64,000 bases of DNA from a virus. The translations under genes were made by a program, and so were the position numbers. Positions 4,815 through 49,810 of the stretch are shown piece by piece. Positions within the stretch are counted from its first letter, which is position 1. Every line of letters starts with the position of its first letter. Location of the stretch: IMG/VR virus record IMGVR_UViG_3300013130_002194, positions 1 through 64,000 of that record. The stretch is one strand, 5' to 3'. The notes beneath the pieces are model-generated. The model was not told the origin of the DNA. It did no database searches and saw only the letters and a list, made by a program, of their open reading frames with translations.

Positions 4815-5939
4815 TTAACTTTGCTTAGGAACATTGCTATTTATAGCATCTTTAATCTTATTATAGGCCTGCGCTGTTCTTGATGTAGTGTTTGTAACAA
4901 CGTTACTAGCTGCATCTTTAGCAGCTGTTGCTATTGTTGAGGCTGTAGAGGTTACTTTATTAGCTGCGGTTTTAGGTAAACCGGTAACTGCATTAAAGAA
5001 TTCGTTTGGAGACTTAGCAGAGAAACCACTTGCAGATTTAATAATTTGGTTTTCAATATTGTTAATAACGTTATCTGTAGCTGCATTTGCAACCATTTCT
5101 ACTATAGGGCCACCTTTAGATAGCTTCTTTTTATTTCTTGGCGATAATGTATTGCAAATATTGTTTATATTTTTATTTACTTCACTTGTTAGTTTAGCTG
5201 TATAAAAGTTAGTATTCTTTACCTCTTTTAAAATATTAAGTCTACCTGTTATTGAACCAGTTATTGAGGCTTTTTTCTTATCTAGAGTGCCTAAAAGTGT
5301 TATCTCGGCACTTAAATGTTTGTTAATTTTTTTATTAATTTCAATATACCCAGCAGTACCAACACTTGAAATAACCCCGTTAATACTAATACCGTTAGTA
5401 ATATTTGGAGTTATACCACCAAATGGTATATTGGGTACTGTTATATTGTTTAATAAAGAACTTGTAGCGCTTCTTAAACAATTTTTAATACCAAGCCTTA
5501 AAGTACCTTTTATTTGACCTAAACCACTTTTTACAGCTGCAGACGCAACCCCAAAGCTAGCTTTTGCAAAACCTCCTAATGTACCGCCAGCATTACTCAC
5601 GCCACCCTGTATAGTACCAACAACTCTATTTCCTAATGTATTTACTGCTATTTCTTTTATCCTGGCATTAGCAGCTCCTGATACAGCAGTTATACCGCCC
5701 TTGACTACCCCGTTAGGGTTCTTTACTAATGTTTTTACTGAACCAACTAACCCTCTCACATTTGCGTTTATTTGAGGCAAAGGTGGCACAGCTATGTTTA
5801 ATCCAGTCTTGGCATTAAGTTCATTGGTTAAAGATTTAGGGACAGCAGCCACCTTTCCTATTTTTGACTCAACATCAGCTATAGTCTTAGTAATATTCTT
5901 ACTAAAATTTACAGGGTTAAACTTTTCAAATGCAGCCAT
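4815..5939 (-). CDS. Baseplate-associated structural protein, unknown
   Basis: A 374-residue protein rich in Ala, Gly, Asn, Lys and Thr, with long small-residue helices and repeated A-A/N-T segments; no cysteine-rich or catalytic motif. It lies 5 bases upstream of the gp5-like hub gene in the same transcription unit and starts 6 bases after a late box, so it is probably a tail/baseplate component expressed with the hub. By position it could play the part of a T4 hub or chaperone gene (26-29, 48, 51 group), but I cannot align it to any of them from memory. Confidence 0.65.
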   Translation of the reverse strand: MAAFEKFNPVNFSKNITKTIADVESKIGKVAAVPKSLTNELNAKTGLNIAVPPLPQINANVRGLVGSVKTLVKNPNGVVKGGITAVSGAANARIKEIAVNTLGNRVVGTIQGGVSNAGGTLGGFAKASFGVASAAVKSGLGQIKGTLRLGIKNCLRSATSSLLNNITVPNIPFGGITPNITNGISINGVISSVGTAGYIEINKKINKHLSAEITLLGTLDKKKASITGSITGRLNILKEVKNTNFYTAKLTSEVNKNINNICNTLSPRNKKKLSKGGPIVEMVANAATDNVINNIENQIIKSASGFSAKSPNEFFNAVTGLPKTAANKVTSTASTIATAAKDAASNVVTNTTSRTAQAYNKIKDAINSNVPKQS

Positions 5940-5945
5940 TTAAAT

Positions 5946-5953
5946 TATTTATT
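5946..5953 (-). promoter_or_regulatory. Late promoter box (AATAAATA)
   Basis: Box ends 6 bases before the ATG at 5939. It abuts and shares a base with the -35 element of the early promoter for the divergent dpdA operon. Confidence 0.6.
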
Positions 5954-5980
5954 TGATTTATTGAGTTTTGACACTATAAT
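5953..5980 (+). promoter_or_regulatory. Sigma70-type promoter of the dpdA-queF operon
   Basis: TTGATT (5953-5958), 16-base spacer, TATAAT (5975-5980). The -10 box ends 7 bases before the ATG at 5988, so transcription should begin at the start codon. It decides the start: the upstream TTG at 5961 lies inside the promoter. Confidence 0.8.
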
Positions 5981-5987
5981 GACAGAG

Positions 5988-6818
5988 ATGAATATTAAAG
6001 TATCTCATGAAGTTCCTATTAAGCTCCTTGATTATTCTCGAAACTTTAACGATTACGACTACTGTCTGGTACACCTTTTGGATCAGAAACCGGAATATAA
6101 GAAGTATTATAAGTCTTGTAAACTCTATGACCGAGAACTGCTCTTGGATAATAGTATTTTCGAGCTTGGTAAGGCTTTCGATTCTGATAAGTTTGCTGAA
6201 AAGGTTGTAGAAATTGAACCTACTTATTACATTATCCCTGACTCTTTGCAGAACTGTGAAGAGACTATCAGTAATTGGAAGAGCTTCGTTGGTAAGTATA
6301 ATGACTTGCCTGGTCTCAAGATTGGTGTTGTTCAAGGCAACACCTGGCGAGAACTTAAGTACTGTTATCAGTTTATGAACGAACATGCTGATTACATTGC
6401 TATCTCTTTCGATTATGGTTATTATCTTATCACTGGTGAGTCTCCAACTAATAATAAGCTCGAGCTCTGGTGCTCTGGCCGTCAACGACTCATTCAGCAA
6501 CTAATGGATAGTGGCATCTGGAATACAAAGAAGCCTCATCACTTGCTCGGTTGTTCGTTGGCTAGGGAGTTTAAGGCCTATTTTGGTCAGACTTCTATTC
6601 GCTCTGTCGATACTTCTAACCCGATTGTTGCTGCTTTGCATGGTCTCAAGTATAATGGAGATCTTGGTTTGAAGACTAAGCCTAGTACCAAGCTGGCTGA
6701 TCTTATTGATTCAAACGTTAATGATGAGCAATGGGATCTAGTTGATTATAACACTAGCGCCTTTAAAGAGATTCTTAGCCACCCTTCTGAGGCCTTTATC
6801 AAAGGATACTATCGATGA
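5988..6818 (+). CDS. dpdA: DpdA-like tRNA-guanine-transglycosylase homologue (DNA 7-deazaguanine insertion)
   Basis: A 276-residue TGT-superfamily protein. LLLDNSIFELG (residues 51-61) matches the first catalytic-Asp region, GVVQG (113-117) is the family G-I-V-Q-G motif, and IRSVDTSNP (204-212) carries the likely nucleophilic Asp208. It lacks the C-terminal zinc site and the length of tRNA TGTs (about 370 residues), as phage DpdA proteins do. DpdA exchanges guanine in DNA for a preQ0/preQ1-type base. It is first in an operon with the formyltransferase, a kinase and queF, and the phage also carries folE, queD, queE and queC, which supports DNA rather than tRNA as target. The DNA target is an inference from context. 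Confidence 0.85.
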   Translation: MNIKVSHEVPIKLLDYSRNFNDYDYCLVHLLDQKPEYKKYYKSCKLYDRELLLDNSIFELGKAFDSDKFAEKVVEIEPTYYIIPDSLQNCEETISNWKSFVGKYNDLPGLKIGVVQGNTWRELKYCYQFMNEHADYIAISFDYGYYLITGESPTNNKLELWCSGRQRLIQQLMDSGIWNTKKPHHLLGCSLAREFKAYFGQTSIRSVDTSNPIVAALHGLKYNGDLGLKTKPSTKLADLIDSNVNDEQWDLVDYNTSAFKEILSHPSEAFIKGYYR

Positions 6819-7789
6819 AATGGATTGCTTTCTTTTCTAAGACTGGTTCAGAGTTGATTGAAATTATGAATCACTTCAATCGCTGGCCTGATCTCATAGT
6901 TTCAAACCGACCTCATCTTGATGGTTGCCATGAACAATTTAAGAGCTTAATTCAATCCTTTCCAGATAAGGTTCGTCACATTAGTTCCAGCCCTACTGTT
7001 GAAGAGTATAAAAGAGCAATTGAATCTACTGGAACAGAAGACGTAATTATTACTCTTCACGGGTATATGCGAATTCTACCCAAAGAGATTTGTGATACTT
7101 ATGACATTTATAACGGGCACCCTGGTTTGATTACTAAGTATCCTGAGCTTAAAGGTAAAGACCCTCAACGCAAGGCCTGGCTTAATGGATATGCAGAATC
7201 TGGATGTGTTATTCACAAAGTAACCTCAGAGCTTGATGGTGGTCCTGTAATGGCTCAAGTTGCAGTTGATATTAAGGACCTTAGCTTTGATAATGTTATT
7301 AGCGAGTTGCATAAGGCTTCCGTTAAACTGTGGATTGAGTTTATGAAAAAACAATGGATTCGGAGAGAATATAGAGAATTGACTACACCTAAAACTGTGC
7401 TTGAAGCAAATATGGCTGCAAATATACCAACAGATTATAGAGAGCTAGTGCCAGATTACTCAGTAGAATATTGTCAAGAACATTATCCAGAGACTCTTAA
7501 AGAGCTTCGACGTCTGCAAGAAGAAGAGTTCTTGCTCTTTTGTAAGAAGCAATTTGATTACGGCCCTGGTAATATTTCTGTTGGTCAAGATACTGCTGCT
7601 GCAGATGGAAAGAGAGTTTCTCTTTGCTCTATCATCTTTAGATGCAACGACAAGGTTCAACGATTGCTAAATCTTGTGGTCAAAAATAGTAAATGTGCTC
7701 AGAACGAACCTGTTATGGATGCCTTCTCAGATCTTTCTCTTTACGGAAAGATTGCGAAAATAGTTGATAAAGGTGTCTGGGGCAAGTAA
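6815..7789 (+). CDS. Formyltransferase fused to a C-terminal nucleotide-modification-associated (DUF1599-like) domain
   Basis: A 324-residue two-domain protein. Residues 1-180 form a PurN/Fmt-type formyltransferase: N-G-H-P-G-L-I at 100-106 contains the catalytic Asn/His pair, and GCVIHKVTSELDGGPVMAQ (130-148) contains the conserved SxLDxGxx region that holds 10-formyltetrahydrofolate. Residues about 235-315 carry DYGPGNIS, then NDKVQRL, then a D-x3-D/Y segment, which I recall as the DUF1599 family, also named nucleotide modification associated domain 1. It overlaps dpdA by 4 bases and is followed by a kinase and queF. The obvious acceptor is the aminomethyl group of preQ1, free or in DNA. 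That reaction is inferred; formylation of a sugar or nucleotide is an alternative. Confidence 0.8.
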   Translation: MKWIAFFSKTGSELIEIMNHFNRWPDLIVSNRPHLDGCHEQFKSLIQSFPDKVRHISSSPTVEEYKRAIESTGTEDVIITLHGYMRILPKEICDTYDIYNGHPGLITKYPELKGKDPQRKAWLNGYAESGCVIHKVTSELDGGPVMAQVAVDIKDLSFDNVISELHKASVKLWIEFMKKQWIRREYRELTTPKTVLEANMAANIPTDYRELVPDYSVEYCQEHYPETLKELRRLQEEEFLLFCKKQFDYGPGNISVGQDTAAADGKRVSLCSIIFRCNDKVQRLLNLVVKNSKCAQNEPVMDAFSDLSLYGKIAKIVDKGVWGK

Positions 7790-7798
7790 AATCAAGGC

Positions 7799-8491
7799 AT
7801 GAGAAAGCTATTTACGTTTACCGGTGCACAAAGTACCGGTAAGACTACATTGCTTAAGAAGGTTAAGACCTTGTACCCTTATCGCTTTGATTATGTTGAC
7901 GAGGTTACTCGCAAGATCAAGCGGTTGGGTGTTTCTATCAACAATGAAGCAACTAACTATGATTTGACTCAGTCTCTTATTATCAACGATCATTTGCTTA
8001 ACTATGCAAAGGTCTTGGATAATTCTAGTGAAGAGGTTAAAGATTTGTTGTTAGATCGTTGCATTGTTGATGGTTACATTTATACGAAGTATTTTTATAA
8101 GGAAGGTAAAGTTAGTTGCAGAGTTCTAGACTTTGCTGAGCAATGGTTTAAAAAACTTACTCCAATGTATGATGTTATATTTTATACTAATCCTGGTGAT
8201 GTGAAGTTGGTCGATGATGGTGAGCGTAGTGTTGATGCTAAGTTTAGAAATGAGATTATCGACTTGTATGAAAGAGAGTTCTTGGATAAATACGATAACA
8301 TTTGTATTCTCAAAGGCTCTGTTGAAGAGCGTTTGGAGATTATGAAGATTGGAATGCTGTATAGTGCATGTAATAACTGTAATATTATGGATGCTCTAGA
8401 TGCTGGCAAGCCTATTCGGAAGCAAAATAATTATTCAGAATCTGCTGGACAATTGCGTGAAGACTGCTATAATAATCAAAATAAATTATGA
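7799..8491 (+). CDS. P-loop nucleotide/nucleoside kinase (AAA_28/NadR-kinase type)
   Basis: A 230-residue P-loop protein with Walker A GAQSTGKTT at residues 9-17 and the DDGERSVDAKFR segment (about 140) typical of the lid of the AAA_28/NadR-like kinase family. The last 40 residues are a Cys/Asn-rich tail (YSACNNCNIMDAL). It sits 9 bases after the formyltransferase and overlaps queF by 4 bases, so it may phosphorylate a modified nucleoside or base precursor in the 7-deazaguanine route, or simply act in nucleotide salvage. A second member of the same family is at 28743-29459. Confidence 0.75.
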   Translation: MRKLFTFTGAQSTGKTTLLKKVKTLYPYRFDYVDEVTRKIKRLGVSINNEATNYDLTQSLIINDHLLNYAKVLDNSSEEVKDLLLDRCIVDGYIYTKYFYKEGKVSCRVLDFAEQWFKKLTPMYDVIFYTNPGDVKLVDDGERSVDAKFRNEIIDLYEREFLDKYDNICILKGSVEERLEIMKIGMLYSACNNCNIMDALDAGKPIRKQNNYSESAGQLREDCYNNQNKL

Positions 8492-9378
8492 GTGATATTA
8501 CAAAACATCTTGGTAAGACTAGTGCCTATAAGGCTACTTACGATCCGCTTTTGCTCGTTCGTGAGCCTCGTCAACGCAATCGTACCTATCTTGGTATTAA
8601 GAATGAAGATCTTCCATTCATCGGATATGATATCTGGAATGCCTTTGAGGTATCTACTTTGCTTTCTAATGGATGTCCTGTTAGTGTAATTGCTAAGGTT
8701 ACGTATAACTGTGACTCTGAATACATTGTTGAGTCTAAGTCTATTAAGCTCTACTTTAACTCCTTTAATATGGAGAAGCGAGCTTATATCAATACTGTTG
8801 AAGACGCTATTGAGTTTATCGAAGAGACTGCTAGTCAAGATCTTTCTGACTTGCTTGAAACGAACGTTATTGTTACTTGTTTTAAGACTGGTAAGTATGT
8901 TGTTAATGACAATCTTGCTGGTTATCCTGTTCTTGAGAATGAAGTGCAGTATGGTATCGATAGTGAGTTCACTAGTTATTCTGAGAATCCTTTGCTCTTG
9001 ACTTCTAGTGAAACTACTAAGAACCCTGTTAAGCAGTACTTTAGTTCTAAGCTATTGAAGTCTAACTGTAAGGTTACTAGCCAGCCTGACTGGGGGGATG
9101 TGTATATTTATTTGAAGTCTGATAAGCTTGTTGATAAGACTTCTCTGCTTAAGTATATTGTTTCATTCCGGGATGAGTGTCACTTCCATGAAGAGATTTG
9201 TGAAGCTATTTACAAGCGACTTCAAGATGCTTATGAGCCTGAAGAGTTGTTAGTGTTTTGCTTCTATGTTCGTCGTGGTGGTATTGATATTAATCCTATT
9301 CGAGCATCGAATATTAATCTAATCGATAATGATATGATTGATCCATATTTACCGTTTATTCGAACTGGCAGACAGTAA
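8488..9378 (+). CDS. queF: 7-cyano-7-deazaguanine (preQ0) reductase, bimodular QueF
   Basis: A 296-residue type II (two tandem T-fold, YqcD-like) QueF, close to the E. coli length of 282. Visible features are the substrate motif VESKSIKLYFNSFN (81-94), the catalytic cysteine in KSNCKVTSQPDWG (Cys194) and the NADPH-site region YVRRGGIDINP (about 261-271). It reduces preQ0 to preQ1 using NADPH. Its place in the dpdA operon indicates that the base inserted into DNA is preQ1 or something made from it, rather than preQ0. Start overlaps the kinase stop (ATGA). Confidence 0.95.
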   Translation: MSDITKHLGKTSAYKATYDPLLLVREPRQRNRTYLGIKNEDLPFIGYDIWNAFEVSTLLSNGCPVSVIAKVTYNCDSEYIVESKSIKLYFNSFNMEKRAYINTVEDAIEFIEETASQDLSDLLETNVIVTCFKTGKYVVNDNLAGYPVLENEVQYGIDSEFTSYSENPLLLTSSETTKNPVKQYFSSKLLKSNCKVTSQPDWGDVYIYLKSDKLVDKTSLLKYIVSFRDECHFHEEICEAIYKRLQDAYEPEELLVFCFYVRRGGIDINPIRASNINLIDNDMIDPYLPFIRTGRQ

Positions 9379-30308: not shown

Positions 30309-31040
30309 TTAAACTTTCAAGGCCTTGTTCCAAAGCACCAACTGCAATCGAGGACTAAAGTTGAAGCCGTGCTTCTTACAAACCTCTGCTACCCAAGGAG
30401 CAACTGCATTATGCTCATCACGAGAACCGCAACAAGGCATCAACCAAACACGATCTTCAGTAAGATTGAACGGTTTAATATACTTCTCAATAATCTCTTC
30501 AACATCACTATCCTTCTGCACAACAAACTTAAAGAAAGAATAGATATCTGCATGAAACTTAATAACTTCTGGAATGTATCTCTTCTCAACTGGATCACCA
30601 TTAGTTGATAACTTAGGAGAAACAGTAAAGGTAGCACCAATATGCTCCCAAAATGCATCAGGTTTAATTGTACAGTTAGTCTCAAAATCAATGCCAGGAT
30701 AGATATCATACTTATTAAGAAAGGTTTCAATAAACTCAATTAAAGCCTTTTGCTGAATAAGAGGTTCACCACCAGTAATCTTAAGAACATGATTACTTTT
30801 CAATTTATTAATGTAATCATTATCTTCGAAGATCTTAAAAATCTCTTCAAAGGTTAGTTTATTCTTTTTAGACCAGCTAACATAGCTATCACAACCAAAC
30901 GGAGAATCAGGAGACTTAAACCCGATACAAGTCAAGTTACACATTGCCAGCCGCATGAAGATGCTAGGCCTACCAACCAAATGACCTTCACCTTCAATCG
31001 TTTCAAAGACGAAGTCATCAGAGAGAAATAATGAACTCAT
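30309..31040 (-). CDS. queE: 7-carboxy-7-deazaguanine synthase, QueE
   Basis: A 243-residue radical SAM enzyme that contracts carboxytetrahydropterin to CDG. TIEGEGHLVGRPSIFMRLA (14-32) is the family start and LKITGGEPLIQ (about 83-93) is the S-adenosylmethionine G-G-E-P motif. The cluster-binding cysteines are Cys34, Cys38 and Cys50: C-x3-C-x11-C instead of the usual C-x3-C-x2-C, an expanded loop seen in some QueE lineages. It has its own sigma70-type promoter located over the 3' end of queD. Together with folE and queD next door it supplies the first three steps of preQ0 synthesis. Confidence 0.93.
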   Translation of the reverse strand: MSSLFLSDDFVFETIEGEGHLVGRPSIFMRLAMCNLTCIGFKSPDSPFGCDSYVSWSKKNKLTFEEIFKIFEDNDYINKLKSNHVLKITGGEPLIQQKALIEFIETFLNKYDIYPGIDFETNCTIKPDAFWEHIGATFTVSPKLSTNGDPVEKRYIPEVIKFHADIYSFFKFVVQKDSDVEEIIEKYIKPFNLTEDRVWLMPCCGSRDEHNAVAPWVAEVCKKHGFNFSPRLQLVLWNKALKV

Positions 31041-31046
31041 AATTCA

Positions 31047-31074
31047 ATGATATAGGAATCACTCTTATGTTCAA
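31047..31074 (-). promoter_or_regulatory. Sigma70-type promoter of queE
   Basis: TTGAAC (31069-31074) overlapping the queD stop, 16-base spacer, TATCAT (31047-31052), 6 bases to the ATG at 31040. Confidence 0.7.
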
Positions 31075-31766
31075 GCCCATTTGGTACCAAAGTCCCAGGT
31101 ACTAGGACGATTCTTACCTCCGACTGGAACACCTTGCGGAGGAGCAACAGTCTGCTTAGGGGTAACCCTCACTGGCTTATTTGTTTCATAAGGCTTAGCT
31201 TCAGTCTGCTTTTCAGACTTGGCAGGTGGTGCCCAGACAGGTTCAGCAGTCTTACCTTTCTTACCTTTGTCTTTAGCAGGAGCAACTACAGTTTCTTCAG
31301 CAATTTCTGCCACAGACACTTGAGTATTTTCAGCAGAATAAATAGCAGAGTTCTTCTCATGCTCAAACACCTCAACAGAGTGAGCGCGAACACGACCGCT
31401 AGTCTTATGCTTCACGTAGCTATCTGCAGCATTAAAACAATACTTGGCAAACATCTCAATGCCGACCCCTTCATCCATAACAACAATTGAAGCAGCTCCA
31501 GCCTTTTCAAGAGCCTCAAACTCCTTCATAGCAGGATCATTCTTAGCAAGAACGAGAGTATGATCAAACTTCTCCTGCAAGAATCCCTTAAATTCGTCAA
31601 AGTCTCCGAAGTCAACAACCCAATTGTTACCGTCAAGAGATTCAGCTGTAAACGTAAACTTGCCAACCAAACGGTAACCGTGAATGAATCTGCAGTGGGA
31701 CTTAGCATTAGGTTGACGGAATGCAGCGCTCCCGAGTTCAATAACCTTCGTGGAATAATATCTCAT
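31071..31766 (-). CDS. queD: QueD/PTPS-like 6-carboxytetrahydropterin synthase with C-terminal extension
   Basis: A 231-residue protein whose first 145 residues follow the QueD/PTPS fold: GSAAFRQPNAKSHCRFIHGY (12-31) with catalytic Cys25, WVVDFGDFDEFKGF (49-62), F-D-H-T-L (67-71) and EVFEHEKNSAIY near 132-143. Two of the usual zinc histidines differ (S-A-A-F for A-A-H, and H-G-Y for H-G-H), as in a phage-type subfamily I recall from T4-like genomes. Residues 146-231 are a Pro/Lys/Val-rich tail of unknown use. The start is ATG 31766; a longer open frame upstream overlaps folE and is rejected. Divergent from folE. Confidence 0.82.
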   Translation of the reverse strand: MRYYSTKVIELGSAAFRQPNAKSHCRFIHGYRLVGKFTFTAESLDGNNWVVDFGDFDEFKGFLQEKFDHTLVLAKNDPAMKEFEALEKAGAASIVVMDEGVGIEMFAKYCFNAADSYVKHKTSGRVRAHSVEVFEHEKNSAIYSAENTQVSVAEIAEETVVAPAKDKGKKGKTAEPVWAPPAKSEKQTEAKPYETNKPVRVTPKQTVAPPQGVPVGGKNRPSTWDFGTKWA

Positions 31767-31773
31767 ACTTAAT

Positions 31774-31801
31774 ATGTTATGAACTTTTTTCCTAGAATCA
31801 A
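31774..31801 (-). promoter_or_regulatory. Weak sigma70-type promoter of queD
   Basis: TTGATT (31796-31801), 16-base spacer, TAACAT (31774-31779, four of six consensus bases), 7 bases to the ATG at 31766. Its -35 lies 3 bases from the -35 of the folE promoter. Confidence 0.45.
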
Positions 31802-31838: not shown

Positions 31839-32495
31839 ATGAATGATGAGATTAGAGAGAAAAATTACCTCCTCCCGACTGCTAACAGTTCTATGACTCT
31901 GACAGAAGAGCAAAAGCTTGCTATTATCGACAAAGGCGCTAAGGCATATGAGGCGTTTTTGGATGCTCTTCGCATTGACTGGCGTAATGATCCGAATAGC
32001 TCTGGTACTCCTCGACGTGTTGCAAAGTCGTTTGTGTTTGATTTGATCTCGGGATGTTATGAGGCTCCTCCGAAGGTTACTTCTTTCCCTGCTGATGGGT
32101 ATGATGGAATTATTTCTCAGACGAACATTCCATTGACTAGTATGTGTAGCCATCACCATTTGGCGTTTACTGGGTTGGTGCATGTTGCTTATATTCCTAG
32201 TCTTGAAGGTCGTGTTATTGGCTTGAGTAAGCTAAATCGTATTGTTGAGTTTTATGGTCGTCGACCTCAGATTCAAGAAGGGTTGACAATGCAGATTCAT
32301 AAGGCTATTAACGAAGTCTGTGAGCATAATAAGGGTGTTGCAGTTGTTGTTAAGGCTCAGCATACTTGTGCTTGTAATCGAGGTGTGAGACATCAAGGTT
32401 GTTATATGGTTACTTCTAAGCTATCTGGAGACTTCTATGACGATGAGAAGACTCGCAAAGAGTTTTACGACTTCATTAAGATGGCTGAAGAGTAG
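31839..32495 (+). CDS. folE: GTP cyclohydrolase I, FolE
   Basis: A 218-residue FolE that opens GTP to 7,8-dihydroneopterin triphosphate, the entry to 7-deazaguanine (and folate) synthesis. Zinc and active-site residues are visible in TSMCSHHHLAFTG (Cys103, His106) and QHTCACNRGV (Cys177); GLSKLNRIVEFYGRRPQIQE (128-147) is the family signature. Length matches the bacterial enzyme (about 220). In a phage with queD, queE, queC, queF and dpdA, feeding the modified-base pathway is its most likely role. Monocistronic with a strong leaderless promoter. Confidence 0.97.
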   Translation: MNDEIREKNYLLPTANSSMTLTEEQKLAIIDKGAKAYEAFLDALRIDWRNDPNSSGTPRRVAKSFVFDLISGCYEAPPKVTSFPADGYDGIISQTNIPLTSMCSHHHLAFTGLVHVAYIPSLEGRVIGLSKLNRIVEFYGRRPQIQEGLTMQIHKAINEVCEHNKGVAVVVKAQHTCACNRGVRHQGCYMVTSKLSGDFYDDEKTRKEFYDFIKMAEE

Positions 32496-33072: not shown

Positions 33073-34179
33073 ATGAGTGATGATACATCTTTCGATATGG
33101 AGTTGCCAGATATTCCTATGCCTGGTCAAGAAATTAATACCGACATTGAAGACAAGATTCAAGTTGGTTTTAAGTTTAGCTTTGTAGGAGCTGGTCAAGG
33201 TGGTTCAAGAATTGCTGAGACCTTTCACAAGCTTGGTTACAAGAGAACTTGTGTAATTAATACTGCCCAGCAAGACTTGGCCACAATTGAAGTCCCAAAC
33301 AAGCTCAAGATTGGTAGTGACTCTGGAGCAGGCAAGAATAGAGAAGTTGCTAAGCAGGCTTTAATTGAACAGAGAGAAGATGTTCTTGATTTATTCAGAA
33401 AGTCTTTCGCTAGTAACTTTGATCGTATTTTTGTTTGCGCTGGTGCTGGTGGTGGTACTGGTTCTGGTACAACAACCGAGCTAATTAAGATTGCCAAGGA
33501 CTATCAAGATTCAATTAAATCTACTTCTGACAAGGTAGGAGTATTTTTAGCCTTGCCAAAGAACACAGAAGGTAAGAAGTGTGCTGAGAATGCTCTTAAG
33601 ACTTTAACTGAGATTCTTGAGCTTGTAGACCAAGGAATTGTTTCTCCATTGGTAATTATTGATAATGAGAAGATTAATACAATCTATCCAAGATTGAGTA
33701 TTAACCAGTTTTGGAATACTTCTAACAACAGCATCTGCTCTCTATTCAATTTATTTAATAATATTATTACAAAGAATAGTAGCTATACTTCTTTTGATAA
33801 TAAGGATTACAAGACAGTGCTTGATAGTGGCATTATTGTATTTGGAGCAACCCAGGTTACTCAATGGTCTGATGGAACTGAGATTTCTAAGGCTATGAGA
33901 GATAATCTCAAGAAGAATATCTTGTCTGGTGGCATTGATCTTGGTACTGGTAACATCGCTGCTGCGGTAGTTGTTGGGGATTCAAACGCTCTCGACAATA
34001 TCCCGCAAGAATATCTTGACCAGGCTTTTGAGCAACTAACTAGAACCTTGAAGAATAACTCAACAGTTCATCAAGGCATTTACAAAGGTAACAAGGCTGG
34101 CTTGAGTATCTTTACTGCAATTGGTGGTTTGGGTAAGCCAACTGCTAAGCTAGAAGAACTTAAGAAGCTTTCTACTTAG
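33073..34179 (+). CDS. Tubulin/FtsZ-superfamily GTPase
   Basis: A 368-residue member of the tubulin/FtsZ superfamily. GAGQGGSRIAE (39-49) is the first nucleotide loop, GAGGGTGSGTT (124-134) is the tubulin signature, and SFDNKDYKTVLDSG (240-253) matches the T7 catalytic loop with the Asp residues D-x-x-D retained but the preceding Asn replaced by Ser. It therefore probably binds and hydrolyses GTP and polymerises. It resembles FtsZ/CetZ more than the PhuZ of phiKZ-like phages as far as I can judge. A late box precedes it, so it is made with structural proteins rather than early. Role (positioning heads or DNA, or interfering with host division) is unknown. Confidence 0.88.
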   Translation: MSDDTSFDMELPDIPMPGQEINTDIEDKIQVGFKFSFVGAGQGGSRIAETFHKLGYKRTCVINTAQQDLATIEVPNKLKIGSDSGAGKNREVAKQALIEQREDVLDLFRKSFASNFDRIFVCAGAGGGTGSGTTTELIKIAKDYQDSIKSTSDKVGVFLALPKNTEGKKCAENALKTLTEILELVDQGIVSPLVIIDNEKINTIYPRLSINQFWNTSNNSICSLFNLFNNIITKNSSYTSFDNKDYKTVLDSGIIVFGATQVTQWSDGTEISKAMRDNLKKNILSGGIDLGTGNIAAAVVVGDSNALDNIPQEYLDQAFEQLTRTLKNNSTVHQGIYKGNKAGLSIFTAIGGLGKPTAKLEELKKLST

Positions 34180-46442: not shown

Positions 46443-47540
46443 ATGAGTAAAGAAACGCAAAAAGCAATTGATAACGTATTTGAAGCATTAAACAAAATTA
46501 ATCCTGAAGCAAACTATCTTTCAGAACAAACGCTTTCTGAAGTTAGTGAATTTATCGATACAGGCTGTTATGTACTTAACGCCATTATGTCAGGTTCTCT
46601 CCTAACTGGAGGTATTCCAAAGGGCCGAATCACAGGGTTCATTGGACCATCCCAGACAGGTAAGACCTATATTATCAACAAGATTCTAGGCAATGCCCAG
46701 AAGAAGGGAATGATTCCAGTCATTTTCGATACTGAAATTGCTGTTGAGAGTCGTGGCGCAGAAAATGTTGGTCTTGATCCTAAAAAGACTAAGCATGTAC
46801 CTGTTGATACTGTTGAAAATTGCCGCAATCAGATCTTTGCTCTACTCGATGGTATTGAGAAGAATCCTAGTTTAAAGGGCAAGTTTATTATTAGCATTGA
46901 TTCGCTAGGTAACTTGTCTGCACAGAAAGAACTCAATGACGCTGAGGCTGGTAAGTCAGCTGGTGACATGGGTTTAAGAGCCAAGCAATTGAAGTCAATG
47001 CTAAGAACTTTGACTTACAAGGCTGCTCGTTCTGGTACTACTATTCTATTCAGTAACCATACTTACGATGACCCTGCCGCTATGTATCCAACTCTTGTAA
47101 AGAAGCAGTCTGGTGGCTCTGGTCCGATTTACATGGCTAGTTTGCTTGTGCAATTAGCCAGCCGTTCTGAAAAGCAGGACGATAAAAACGAAAACGATAA
47201 GATGCTTCCTGAGGCTAAAAACTATAGTGGTGTTACTCTCAGAGCTCTTACTGTTAAAAACAGATTTGTGCCTCCTTATCTTGAAGCAGAAATGTATCTG
47301 AACTTCCTGACTGGCCTTGATAAGTATGCTGGTATTCTTAATATGGCTGTTAACCATGGTGTTATTATCCAAACTGGGAGTACGTATACTTTGCCAGATG
47401 GAACCAAGTTAGGTTACTATAGCAAATTTAAGGAGGACAAAAATTTCTGGGACAATAAAATCATACCAGAAGTAGAAAAGATAATTCAGAAAAAATACAA
47501 ATACGGTAACTCCAGCTCAGATGCTAGCATCGAATTATAA
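46443..47540 (+). CDS. uvsX: RecA-like recombinase UvsX
   Basis: A 365-residue recombinase (T4: 391). Walker A is GPSQTGKT (68-75), the catalytic Glu lies in VIFDTEIAVE (about 93-102), Walker B in FIISIDSLGNLSA (about 148-160), and the L2/signature region in FSNHTYDDPAAMYPTLVKKQ-SGGSG (about 204-228). It forms filaments on single-stranded DNA for strand exchange with UvsY and gp32. Its own leaderless promoter and the terminator 120 bases downstream make it nearly monocistronic. Confidence 0.97.
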   Translation: MSKETQKAIDNVFEALNKINPEANYLSEQTLSEVSEFIDTGCYVLNAIMSGSLLTGGIPKGRITGFIGPSQTGKTYIINKILGNAQKKGMIPVIFDTEIAVESRGAENVGLDPKKTKHVPVDTVENCRNQIFALLDGIEKNPSLKGKFIISIDSLGNLSAQKELNDAEAGKSAGDMGLRAKQLKSMLRTLTYKAARSGTTILFSNHTYDDPAAMYPTLVKKQSGGSGPIYMASLLVQLASRSEKQDDKNENDKMLPEAKNYSGVTLRALTVKNRFVPPYLEAEMYLNFLTGLDKYAGILNMAVNHGVIIQTGSTYTLPDGTKLGYYSKFKEDKNFWDNKIIPEVEKIIQKKYKYGNSSSDASIEL

Positions 47541-47575
47541 TGATGAGTTGCCTGATGAAGAAGGAGGTGAAGAAA

Positions 47576-47647
47576 ATGGCCAAGACTAAGGAAACCCCCA
47601 AGACTAAGGAACCCCCCAAGAAGGAAACCCCCAAGAAGGGTAAGTAA
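47576..47647 (+). CDS. Lys/Pro-repeat micro-peptide with a Shine-Dalgarno site
   Basis: A 23-residue peptide reading MAKTKETPKTKEPPKKETPK then KGK, a repeat of K-E-T/P-P-K. The ATG follows GGAGGTG by 7 bases, a textbook ribosome-binding site in a genome where such sites are otherwise lacking. A longer in-frame start at 47543 (MSCLMKKEV...) would add 11 residues. It lies between uvsX and its terminator. Strongly basic and probably disordered; a nucleic-acid-binding role is possible. Could also be only a fortuitous frame. Confidence 0.4.
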   Translation: MAKTKETPKTKEPPKKETPKKGK

Positions 47648-47660
47648 GTTTAACGAAAAG

Positions 47661-47687
47661 GGGCAACAAAGTAAAATCTTGTTGCCC
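47661..47687 (+). terminator. Rho-independent terminator after uvsX
   Basis: Stem GGGCAACAA / TTGTTGCCC (47661-47669 and 47679-47687), loop of 9, followed by TTAATTTTGTTTT. The 3' arm contains the -35 of the queC promoter. Confidence 0.8.
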
Positions 47688-47716: not shown

Positions 47717-48427
47717 ATGAGTAAATGTGTAATTCCTGTTAGTGGTGGCATTGATTCAACTGTCATGCTTTATGATGCTGCTGCATCTAAGACTTATTCA
47801 GATATCTTCGCAATTAGTTTTTATTACGGTCAGCGTCATGCTACGAAGGAGCTGGCTTGTGCGACTAAATCTGTTAACACTTTAAAGGAAAAATATCCAG
47901 AAATTAATATCTATCACCGAACCATTGATCTAAGCTTCTTCGGTGAGATTGCTATTAGCTCTTCAATTACAAATTATAGTATTGCTGTTGCTCAGACTAA
48001 AGATGTTCTCGGTGATCCACAACCAGTTAATTATGTACCGTTTCGTAATCTAATGATGCTATCGATTCTTTGCTCTTTTGCAGAGGCTCATGGTGCTCGA
48101 GATGTTTACTATGGTAGCGCTCTTGTTGATTCTCAGGCTGGTTATTGGGATTCTAGTAATGAGTTTTATTTGAATCTTGCTTCTGTTATTGGTCTCAATC
48201 GCAAGACTAAACTTTCTATTATTACCCCATTGATTAAGCTTGATAAGAAAGATATTATCAAGTTGGGTGATGAGCGTGGGGTTGACTTTAAGAGTACCTG
48301 GACTTGTTATGAAGGTAAAGAACAAGCCTGTGGGTATTGCCCGGCCTGCTCTAGTCGTATCAAAGGCTTTATGGATTATATGATGGTTGACCCTATTGAA
48401 TACAGCCGAGTGATTAAATTTATCTAA
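47717..48427 (+). CDS. queC: 7-cyano-7-deazaguanine (preQ0) synthase, QueC
   Basis: A 236-residue ATP-dependent enzyme converting CDG to preQ0. The PP-loop S-G-G-I-D-S-T (9-15) binds ATP, YYGQRHATKE (about 37-46) and VPFRNLMMLS (about 106-115) are family motifs, and the zinc site is Cys197, Cys205, Cys208 and Cys211 (TCYEGKEQACGYCPACSSR region). It is complete and of normal length. It starts an operon with a class II glutamine amidotransferase one base downstream, a glycosyltransferase and helicase 41, so preQ0 synthesis is timed with DNA replication. Confidence 0.96.
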   Translation: MSKCVIPVSGGIDSTVMLYDAAASKTYSDIFAISFYYGQRHATKELACATKSVNTLKEKYPEINIYHRTIDLSFFGEIAISSSITNYSIAVAQTKDVLGDPQPVNYVPFRNLMMLSILCSFAEAHGARDVYYGSALVDSQAGYWDSSNEFYLNLASVIGLNRKTKLSIITPLIKLDKKDIIKLGDERGVDFKSTWTCYEGKEQACGYCPACSSRIKGFMDYMMVDPIEYSRVIKFI

Positions 48428-48428
48428 T

Positions 48429-49079
48429 ATGTGTGCAATATTTGGTTCTTCTTGTAAAGAAAAATTTGTTAAACTATACGAGTTAAATAAACCTAGAGGG
48501 GTATCAGCTTCTAGCTATTTAACTATTACTGAAGGTGGCTGGATTGATTGTTACAAGAGCGCTGGTGCATTCGATGTAAATAGGTTGAAACCTAGTAAGT
48601 ATTATCTTGGCCATTGCCAGGCTCCGACTACAGTTAATCAAGAATTTAACTCTGAACTAGCTCACCCGTTTTATTGGAATCGCTTTTATGTAGCTCACAA
48701 TGGTATTATTACCAATGTGGAAGAGCTATGTAAAGAGTTTTTTATTAAGTTCGAAGACATTAAAGTTGACTCTAGTATCATTCCTGCTTTAATTGGTTAT
48801 TTTTATTATAAAAAGAACTCTGATCAACCTCAAGACATTATTAACCGTGTTGCTGAGTTGCTCAAAGGTACTTTTGCTTGTTATATTATAGATGATAGAT
48901 CTAATCGAGTATTTCTCATTCGATCAGGTTCTACATTGTTCTATGATCAAGACGGCAACATATCTTCTACTAAATTCGAAAAAGCTTTACCTTTTCAAGA
49001 AGGTAGAGTAGGAGAGATTGTTAATAACAAGATTATCCTTCACAATAACTTTATTTGTAATTCTCCATTTTTTATATGA
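48429..49079 (+). CDS. Class II glutamine amidotransferase domain, next to queC
   Basis: A 216-residue Ntn-type glutaminase with the nucleophile Cys2 directly after the initiator Met (M-C-A-I-F-G), GHCQAPTTVNQE (about 61-72) and YVAHNGIITNVEEL (about 89-102), the residues that bind glutamine in the GATase II family. It releases ammonia from glutamine. It has no synthase domain of its own and begins one base after queC. Fused GAT-QueC proteins are known in archaeosine-type (G+) synthesis, so an unfused pair amidating preQ0 is the natural reading; amidation of another product is possible. Confidence 0.85.
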   Translation: MCAIFGSSCKEKFVKLYELNKPRGVSASSYLTITEGGWIDCYKSAGAFDVNRLKPSKYYLGHCQAPTTVNQEFNSELAHPFYWNRFYVAHNGIITNVEELCKEFFIKFEDIKVDSSIIPALIGYFYYKKNSDQPQDIINRVAELLKGTFACYIIDDRSNRVFLIRSGSTLFYDQDGNISSTKFEKALPFQEGRVGEIVNNKIILHNNFICNSPFFI

Positions 49080-49810
49080 AAATTCTATTTTATACTTGTA
49101 CTAAACAGAACGTAGATGCATTTCTTAAGTTCTCTCCATTGATTAAATGTCTTGGTATGGGCAATAAGTTACCTTATAAGCAAAAGAAAGCCTCTCTTAA
49201 CGAACCTCTTGAACTTAATTATAAGTTTAAGAATCTTCGTTACGGGGCTGATTTAATTGTCTGGACTGAAAATACTGATAGTCTCAGTATTCAATATAAT
49301 AAGGCTAAGAAGTATTATGATCAATACGATGCTATTATCTTCTTGCATGATGATGTGTTTATTACTGATGCATTCTTGATTGAGAAGCTTCAGGTTGCCT
49401 TTGCTCAATTCGATGTTGTTGGGTTGGCTGGTGGAGCTGATATTAGTCTTAAGAGCTATGGCTTGTGGCATATGATGTGCGACCCAAAGACCTTTAGTGG
49501 TGCAGTTTCACACTTTGATAATTTTGGAAAAGAGTTTGTAACTTCATTTGGCCCTTTTAGTAAGCGTTGTCTGCTATTGGATGGTCTTTTCTTGGCTGTT
49601 AATACTAAGACTACAAAAAATATTAATTGGGACGAAAATGTAAAGTTTCACCATTACGACTTGCTATTCTGCTTAGAAGCTAATAAACTCAAGCTGAAGC
49701 TAGGTACTGCTCCAATTTACGTGACCCACGAATCGCCTGGTCTAAATGGATTTAGTGAGGAGTTTAAGAAGAGCGACGCTTACTTTAAAGAATACTTTAA
49801 CAAATACTAA
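49076..49810 (+). CDS. Glycosyltransferase-like protein (GT2/StrF type) in the queC operon
   Basis: A 244-residue protein with a GT-A-like core: DAIIFLHDDVFITDAFL (about 85-101; metal site H-D-D), VVGLAGGADISLKSYGLWH (about 119-137) and HHYDLLFCLEANKLKLKLG (about 195-213) ending T-H-E-S-P-G. This is the layout of the StrF/Glyco_tranf_2_5 group. It overlaps the amidotransferase and helicase 41 genes by 4 and 1 bases, so it is made early together with base-modification and replication enzymes. A sugar added to the modified base is therefore conceivable; a surface or protein acceptor is equally possible. Confidence 0.7.
   Translation: MKILFYTCTKQNVDAFLKFSPLIKCLGMGNKLPYKQKKASLNEPLELNYKFKNLRYGADLIVWTENTDSLSIQYNKAKKYYDQYDAIIFLHDDVFITDAFLIEKLQVAFAQFDVVGLAGGADISLKSYGLWHMMCDPKTFSGAVSHFDNFGKEFVTSFGPFSKRCLLLDGLFLAVNTKTTKNINWDENVKFHHYDLLFCLEANKLKLKLGTAPIYVTHESPGLNGFSEEFKKSDAYFKEYFNKY

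Follow-up and report, generated by a model that had tools for sequence, protein, structure and literature searches.

Canonical QueC proteins (PF06508/TIGR00364) carry an SGGxDS PP-loop, a VPxRN motif, and a four-cysteine zinc site, all of which are shared by the phage QueC analyzed here. However, they have YPDC where the phage protein has YWD, lack its LGDPxP segment, and are not followed by a separate glutamine amidotransferase (GAT) gene. Archaeosine synthase, the Gat-QueC fusion found in phage 9g and in archaea, likewise brings a class II GAT and QueC together for 7-deazaguanine modification. In the fusions, both parts form one GAT-first protein and belong to other QueC and GAT sequence classes (YPDN, no LGDP segment), whereas here QueC and GAT are two genes, in that order, and co-occur with QueF. 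The class II glutaminase domains of GlmS and PurF have the fold, the N-terminal cysteine, the Asn-Gly oxyanion pair, and an aspartate in common with the phage GAT; in contrast, they are fused to an acceptor domain, and the position of GlmS Arg73 is a glutamine in most GATs. A glutaminase working together with an ATP pyrophosphatase is also the principle of AsnB and GMP synthetase, although these act on a different substrate and the glutaminase of GMP synthetase belongs to class I. In some GMP synthetases, the glutaminase is encoded by a gene of its own (PMC13329287). The clusters of the KVP40 group (nt-1, KVP40, and 6E351A) have the order folE-dpdA2-(queF)-queC-GAT and the same GAT family as the locus described here. 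They differ from it in using DpdA2 and in having no formyltransferase in the cluster, and even in well-known phages such as KVP40 the GAT of this two-gene unit is carried beside queC as a "hypothetical protein." A literature search, whose scope did not extend to Cui et al. 2023 (NAR) and a 2024 MMBR review, found no report of a QueC glutaminase.

The DNA analyzed here (the window; 64,000 nucleotides) is part of a 68,471-bp IMG/VR record with a close relative on a 230-kb contig. Its genes for a UvsX/RecA-like protein, a family B polymerase, and a DnaB-like helicase point to a large phage of the T4-like type. A nucleotide-level search with the pair against isolate phages gave no match. The initial annotation had placed a stand-alone class II amidotransferase one base after queC, and we found both open reading frames exactly in this arrangement:

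47661 to 47687, no strand assigned: terminator-like hairpin between uvsX and queC, with a stem of 10 base pairs (reported by the scan for the minus strand only)
47717 to 48427, plus strand: QueC (7-cyano-7-deazaguanine synthase) of the GAT-paired class (PF06508, TIGR00364, motifs)
48429 to 49079, plus strand: stand-alone class II GAT, proposed glutaminase subunit of QueC (GATase_6/7, active site, fold)
49076 to 49810, plus strand: glycosyltransferase-like gene (GT; PF13712), which overlaps the GAT stop and was judged to lie outside the pair

We read the hairpin as a transcription stop ahead of queC. An Rfam scan of the window found neither a preQ1 riboswitch nor any other Rfam RNA. Inspection by eye showed that the acidic UvsX C-terminal tail of a relative (L002) is out of frame in the window (47520 to 47650) and is followed by a 23-aa Lys/Thr/Pro-rich open reading frame with a strong ribosome-binding-like sequence.

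The 236-aa QueC matches PF06508 with 180.8 bits against a cutoff of 22 (E 3e-53) and, at 152.4 bits, lies above the 150.3-bit cutoff of the TIGR00364 QueC equivalog. It contains SGGIDS at position 9, LGDPQP at 98, VPFRN at 107, and a complete four-cysteine zinc site (C197, C205, C208, and C211). The YPDC motif is replaced by YWDS at position 143, which retains the tyrosine but neither the proline nor the cysteine. Because the scores exceed the curated family cutoffs, we consider the protein a variant QueC despite the missing YPDC. Y131 of YPDC is essential in E. coli QueC (PMC13329287), and this tyrosine is retained in most GAT-paired QueCs.

The paired QueCs are marked by WD preceded by Y, F, H, or N at the E. 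coli YPDC position, together with an LGDPxP-type segment before VPxRN. In contrast, unpaired QueCs of both phages and cells have YPDC and no LGDPxP segment, while the 9g and BA3 Gat-QueC fusions have YPDN in place of YPDC. Judged by these sequence marks, the GAT-paired QueCs are a separate phage QueC class. In a tree built without the trait columns, a single clade for the paired class was not rejected (AU p 0.58); the free tree, with long branches in play, split the class. In a model of E. coli QueC, the positions of the WD loop and the LGDPxP segment fall in or beside motifs at the substrate pocket and ATP (PMC13329287), and therefore our guess is that they could influence how GAT docks or how ammonia enters. 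Among the GAT-paired QueCs, a marine branch (L018, L023, L031, L037, L040, L041, L058, and L075) is without three of the four zinc cysteines, which could mean an altered chemistry. Long contigs of this branch still encode QueF (L040 and L035), and L040 also encodes DpdA. In L018, a gene between QueC and GAT (5508 to 6482) resembles, by eye, GMP reductase/IMP dehydrogenase.

The start codon of GAT (216 aa) follows the queC stop after a single base (TAA-t-ATG). The protein exceeds the cutoffs of GATase_6 and GATase_7, scores far below those of the GlmS and PurF families, and belongs to phrog_12378 ("unknown function"). Cys2, described as intact in the initial annotation, indeed follows the initiator methionine and is present in 101 of the 101 non-identical homologs with letters at this position. 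His62, Pro66, Thr67, His90, Asn91, Gly92, Asp114, Gly147, and Arg165 are invariant in all 103 homologs. The protein thus has the Cys2 nucleophile, the Asn91-Gly92 oxyanion pair, and Asp114 for the glutamine amino group expected of class II enzymes. The position of GlmS Arg73, which contacts the glutamine carboxylate, is taken by Gln64 in 96 of the 103 homologs, including the window protein, and by arginine in 7. An AlphaFold model of GAT (pLDDT 93.7; three phage-record rows were left out of the alignment given) matches the GlmS glutaminase domain (1xff; E 9e-13, TM 0.78/0.72), followed by PurF and EgtC, and so has the Ntn glutaminase fold. By sequence and predicted fold, GAT looks like a competent glutaminase. 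Relatives of GAT also occur in phage amidoligase/ATP-grasp clusters (L009, 5001 to 6188; L010, 4776 to 6188).

Next, we consider the pair across phages. queC and GAT are adjacent or overlap by one base in the isolates KVP40, nt-1, 6E35.1a, K566, pf16 (Pseudomonas), and 2.275.O (Vibrio). The GAT family was found in 51 records, where it abuts or overlaps queC wherever features carry names. A query of IMG/VR with QueC only, in which GAT was not a condition, returned 80 loci, and GAT lay near QueC in 78 of the 78 evaluable ones (of the other two, one ends within queC and the gene caller overlooked the second, which is KVP40 itself); the search patterns were derived from four paired QueCs and hence sampled the GAT-paired class. 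Counted over unique but related sequences, which are not independent events, GAT was present within seven genes of 108 of 110 WD-type QueCs and beside none of 38 YPDCR-type QueCs, five of which have short flanks. The two WD exceptions are L241, where GAT lies at a greater distance, and L227, whose protein has YPDC and was picked up because the pattern is loose. GAT is thus tied exclusively to one QueC class, and because the pair recurs in unrelated phages, the adjacency is far beyond chance. The companion genes vary (FolE-DpdA-QueC-GAT, QueF-QueC-GAT, and FolE-DpdA2-QueF-QueC-GAT), and the pair is found both with QueF (window phage, KVP40, pf16, and 2.275.O) and without it.

QueC and GAT also match in their divergence. 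Their distance matrices, drawn from 14 to 47 related loci, correlated at 0.71, 0.88, and 0.81 in three sets, while the correlations of QueC with other genes of the same loci were lower (FolE, 0.49; DpdA, 0.69; QueF, 0.60). Within the branch that carries GT, every pair correlated about equally (0.87 to 0.90), and QueC-GT came close to QueC-GAT (0.87 versus 0.90).

The rest of the 7-deazaguanine pathway is spread over the window:

5961 to 6818, plus strand: DpdA-type transglycosylase, predicted to insert a 7-deazaguanine base into DNA (AlphaFold fold match)
6815 to 7789, plus strand: formyltransferase, candidate preQ1 formyltransferase (DpdN-like; PF00551, E 9e-17), overlapping the dpdA stop
8488 to 9378, plus strand: QueF nitrile reductase, two-domain type (PF14819, E 3e-32; PF14489, E 3e-21)
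30309 to 31040, minus strand: QueE (7-carboxy-7-deazaguanine synthase), radical SAM (TIGR03963, E 2e-15, below cutoff)
31071 to 31781, minus strand: QueD (6-carboxytetrahydropterin synthase), start approximate (PF01242, E 7e-16; TIGR03367, E 1e-7, below cutoff)
31839 to 32495, plus strand: FolE (GTP cyclohydrolase I; PF01227, E 3e-47; TIGR00063, E 9e-48, below cutoff)

The presence of QueF, as claimed in the initial annotation, was thereby confirmed; the protein keeps the catalytic cysteine and the ESKSIK motif and matches TIGR03138 with E 4e-74, below cutoff. FolE, QueD, QueE, and QueF all fall under the strict NCBIfam cutoffs. Since the "QueE" seed set included an ArcS-like open reading frame of nt-1, the QueE labels across loci are loose. 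The protein encoded at 5961 to 6818 had no match in a Pfam search. Its start codon is uncertain, and 5979 was taken for the structure model (pLDDT 88.5), which matches tRNA-guanine transglycosylases (2ash; E 3e-9, TM 0.61/0.49, rmsd 8.3) and shows the TGT fold; on the strength of this match, the product is likely DpdA. Its homologs reside in FolE-DpdA-QueC-GAT clusters.

All 12 homologs of the formyltransferase in the QueC-found loci occur with QueF, and none was present in the 55 loci, some of them short, that have no QueF nearby. Cui et al. reportedly described, in 2023, a phage formyltransferase named DpdN that makes formyl-dPreQ1. Given its location beside DpdA and QueF, the formyltransferase suggests an end base derived from preQ1. 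Because the window encodes FolE, QueD, QueE, DpdA, and the formyltransferase, the end product is likely a preQ1-derived base, possibly formylated. An AAA_28 kinase-like gene lies 3′ of the formyltransferase gene and is followed by queF.

We propose, with a probability of roughly 0.65, that QueC and GAT together form a preQ0 synthase that depends on glutamine, with GAT as its glutaminase subunit. The N-terminal cysteine of GAT would split glutamine, and the freed ammonia would pass to the adjacent QueC, which with ATP would convert 7-carboxy-7-deazaguanine (CDG) to the amide and then to the nitrile preQ0. In the window phage, QueF would reduce preQ0 to preQ1, which DpdA would put into DNA and which would probably be formylated; the last steps may occur in either order. 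Such an enzyme would follow the logic of AsnB and GMP synthetase, divided over two genes. An ammonia-supplying subunit was among the readings offered in the initial annotation, and it is the best supported of them, given the link to one QueC class, the active site, the fold, and the dPreQ1 of 6E351A. The QueC described here thus looks like an enzyme with an obligate external glutaminase. However, bacterial QueC can use free ammonium and therefore does not strictly require a glutaminase, which counts against the subunit model. We also weighed against it the loss of zinc cysteines in the marine QueCs, Gln64 at the GlmS Arg73 position, and the QueC-GT correlation in the GT-bearing branch. If the model is true, phages own a preQ0 synthase that depends on glutamine, partnership with GAT has a clear sequence mark within the QueC family, and a GAT beside queC is by itself no sign of archaeosine. 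Because pair-bearing isolates exist (nt-1, KVP40, and 6E351A), the idea is directly testable.

Bases have been measured in two pair-bearing phages. The DNA of nt-1 contains, per million nucleotides, 232 dPreQ0, 72 dADG, and 44 dG+; the base is thus mostly dPreQ0, with dG+ at 0.02% of G (PMC6884629). The genome of nt-1 encodes the pair and an ArcS-like gene and has no QueF match, while QueF precedes queC in KVP40 and VH7D. The ArcS-like gene (NC_021529, 236415 to 237095) lies next to QueD and matches DUF5591 with E 2.5e-12. In 6E351A, which we took as record 6E35.1a (MW824377; queD-folE-dpdA2-queF-queC-GAT), 15% of dG carries a modification identified as dPreQ1 (mass, 295 Da); no G+ is reported in the text, and minor dG+ could still be present (PMC12028318). 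Since this phage with its queF-queC-GAT order holds dPreQ1, the pair appears to supply preQ0 to QueF in at least one measured phage.

These measurements also bear on a split archaeosine synthase, in which GAT and QueC would make the amidine G+, free or in DNA, so that dG+ and a preQ1 derivative would both be end bases. We regard it as unlikely. The fused Gat-QueC of 9g, expressed with DpdA in E. coli, yields dG+ at 18% and 9% of G (PMC6884629), nt-1 holds trace dG+ and dADG with a split pair, some pair-bearing clusters are without QueF, and the Gat domain of BA3 is a clearer match to GAT (24% over 221 aa). However, the Gat domain of 9g is barely similar to GAT (21% over 84 aa, E 0.01), the paired QueC is unlike the fused one in its WD loop and extra segment, and the pair repeatedly co-occurs with QueF. 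An efficient split G+ synthase should leave dG+ in relatives; yet, nt-1 has only a trace, for which its ArcS-like gene could account, and 6E351A has 15% dPreQ1 with no G+ reported in the text. The published data on pair-bearing relatives therefore argue against G+ as the main product. Thus, the suggestion in the initial annotation of G+ beside preQ1 is weakened by the motifs, QueF, and the bases of both phages, and retains the trace dG+ of nt-1 in its favor. The pair probably does not represent the phage 9g fusion divided into two genes. Common descent with the fused Gat-QueC was considered and is disfavored by the motifs; the tree stripped of trait columns did not settle the relation (AU p 0.40).

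A redesigned enzyme, in which GAT and the WD-type QueC would add a second ammonia onto the activated amide and directly release G+, at least in phages without QueF, appears quite improbable to us. If true, archaeosine synthesis would have arisen independently here, and the QueF-bearing relatives would have been diverted to preQ1.

There is little chance that GAT works by itself as a glutaminase or amidase, in nitrogen or amino acid pools or in the amidation of another substrate, and stays near queC by operon inheritance. The related GATs in the amidoligase/ATP-grasp clusters of 1.293.O and QDWS535 indicate that this type can serve other synthetases; however, the exclusive tie to one QueC class and the joint absence of GAT with QueC speak against such a separate role. 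It is very improbable that the pair halts at the amide and yields 7-amido-7-deazaguanine (ADG). The trace dADG in nt-1 (PMC6884629) and the remodeled YPDC loop at the substrate pocket would fit such a product, but QueF, which needs the nitrile preQ0, is encoded with the pair in the window phage and many others, and dPreQ1 is present in 6E351A (PMC12028318).

GT adjoins GAT, often overlapping it, in most loci of the branch of the window phage, in the orders QueC-GT-GAT, QueC-GAT-GT, or GAT-x-x-GT. GAT occurs without GT in KVP40, pf16, 2.275.O, and loci L118 to L171. Conversely, at least 10 loci (L250, L253, L256, L266, L276, L284, L290, L293, L296, L302, and L305) have GT in a similar slot but neither GAT nor QueC, several of them on long contigs without any QueC. 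Because QueC and GAT are jointly absent while GT remains, a GAT-GT partnership is argued against, and GT is an independent neighbor of the QueC-GAT pair. The initial annotation had named a pairing with GT in sugar amidation as the alternative. The idea that GAT serves GT, to amidate sugars or modify a surface, and lies near queC incidentally is not supported, largely because of the GT loci on long contigs, and is very improbable.

Elsewhere in the window, positions 33073 to 34179 encode a tubulin/FtsZ-family GTPase with a TubZ-like C-terminal domain, possibly a phage cytoskeleton protein.
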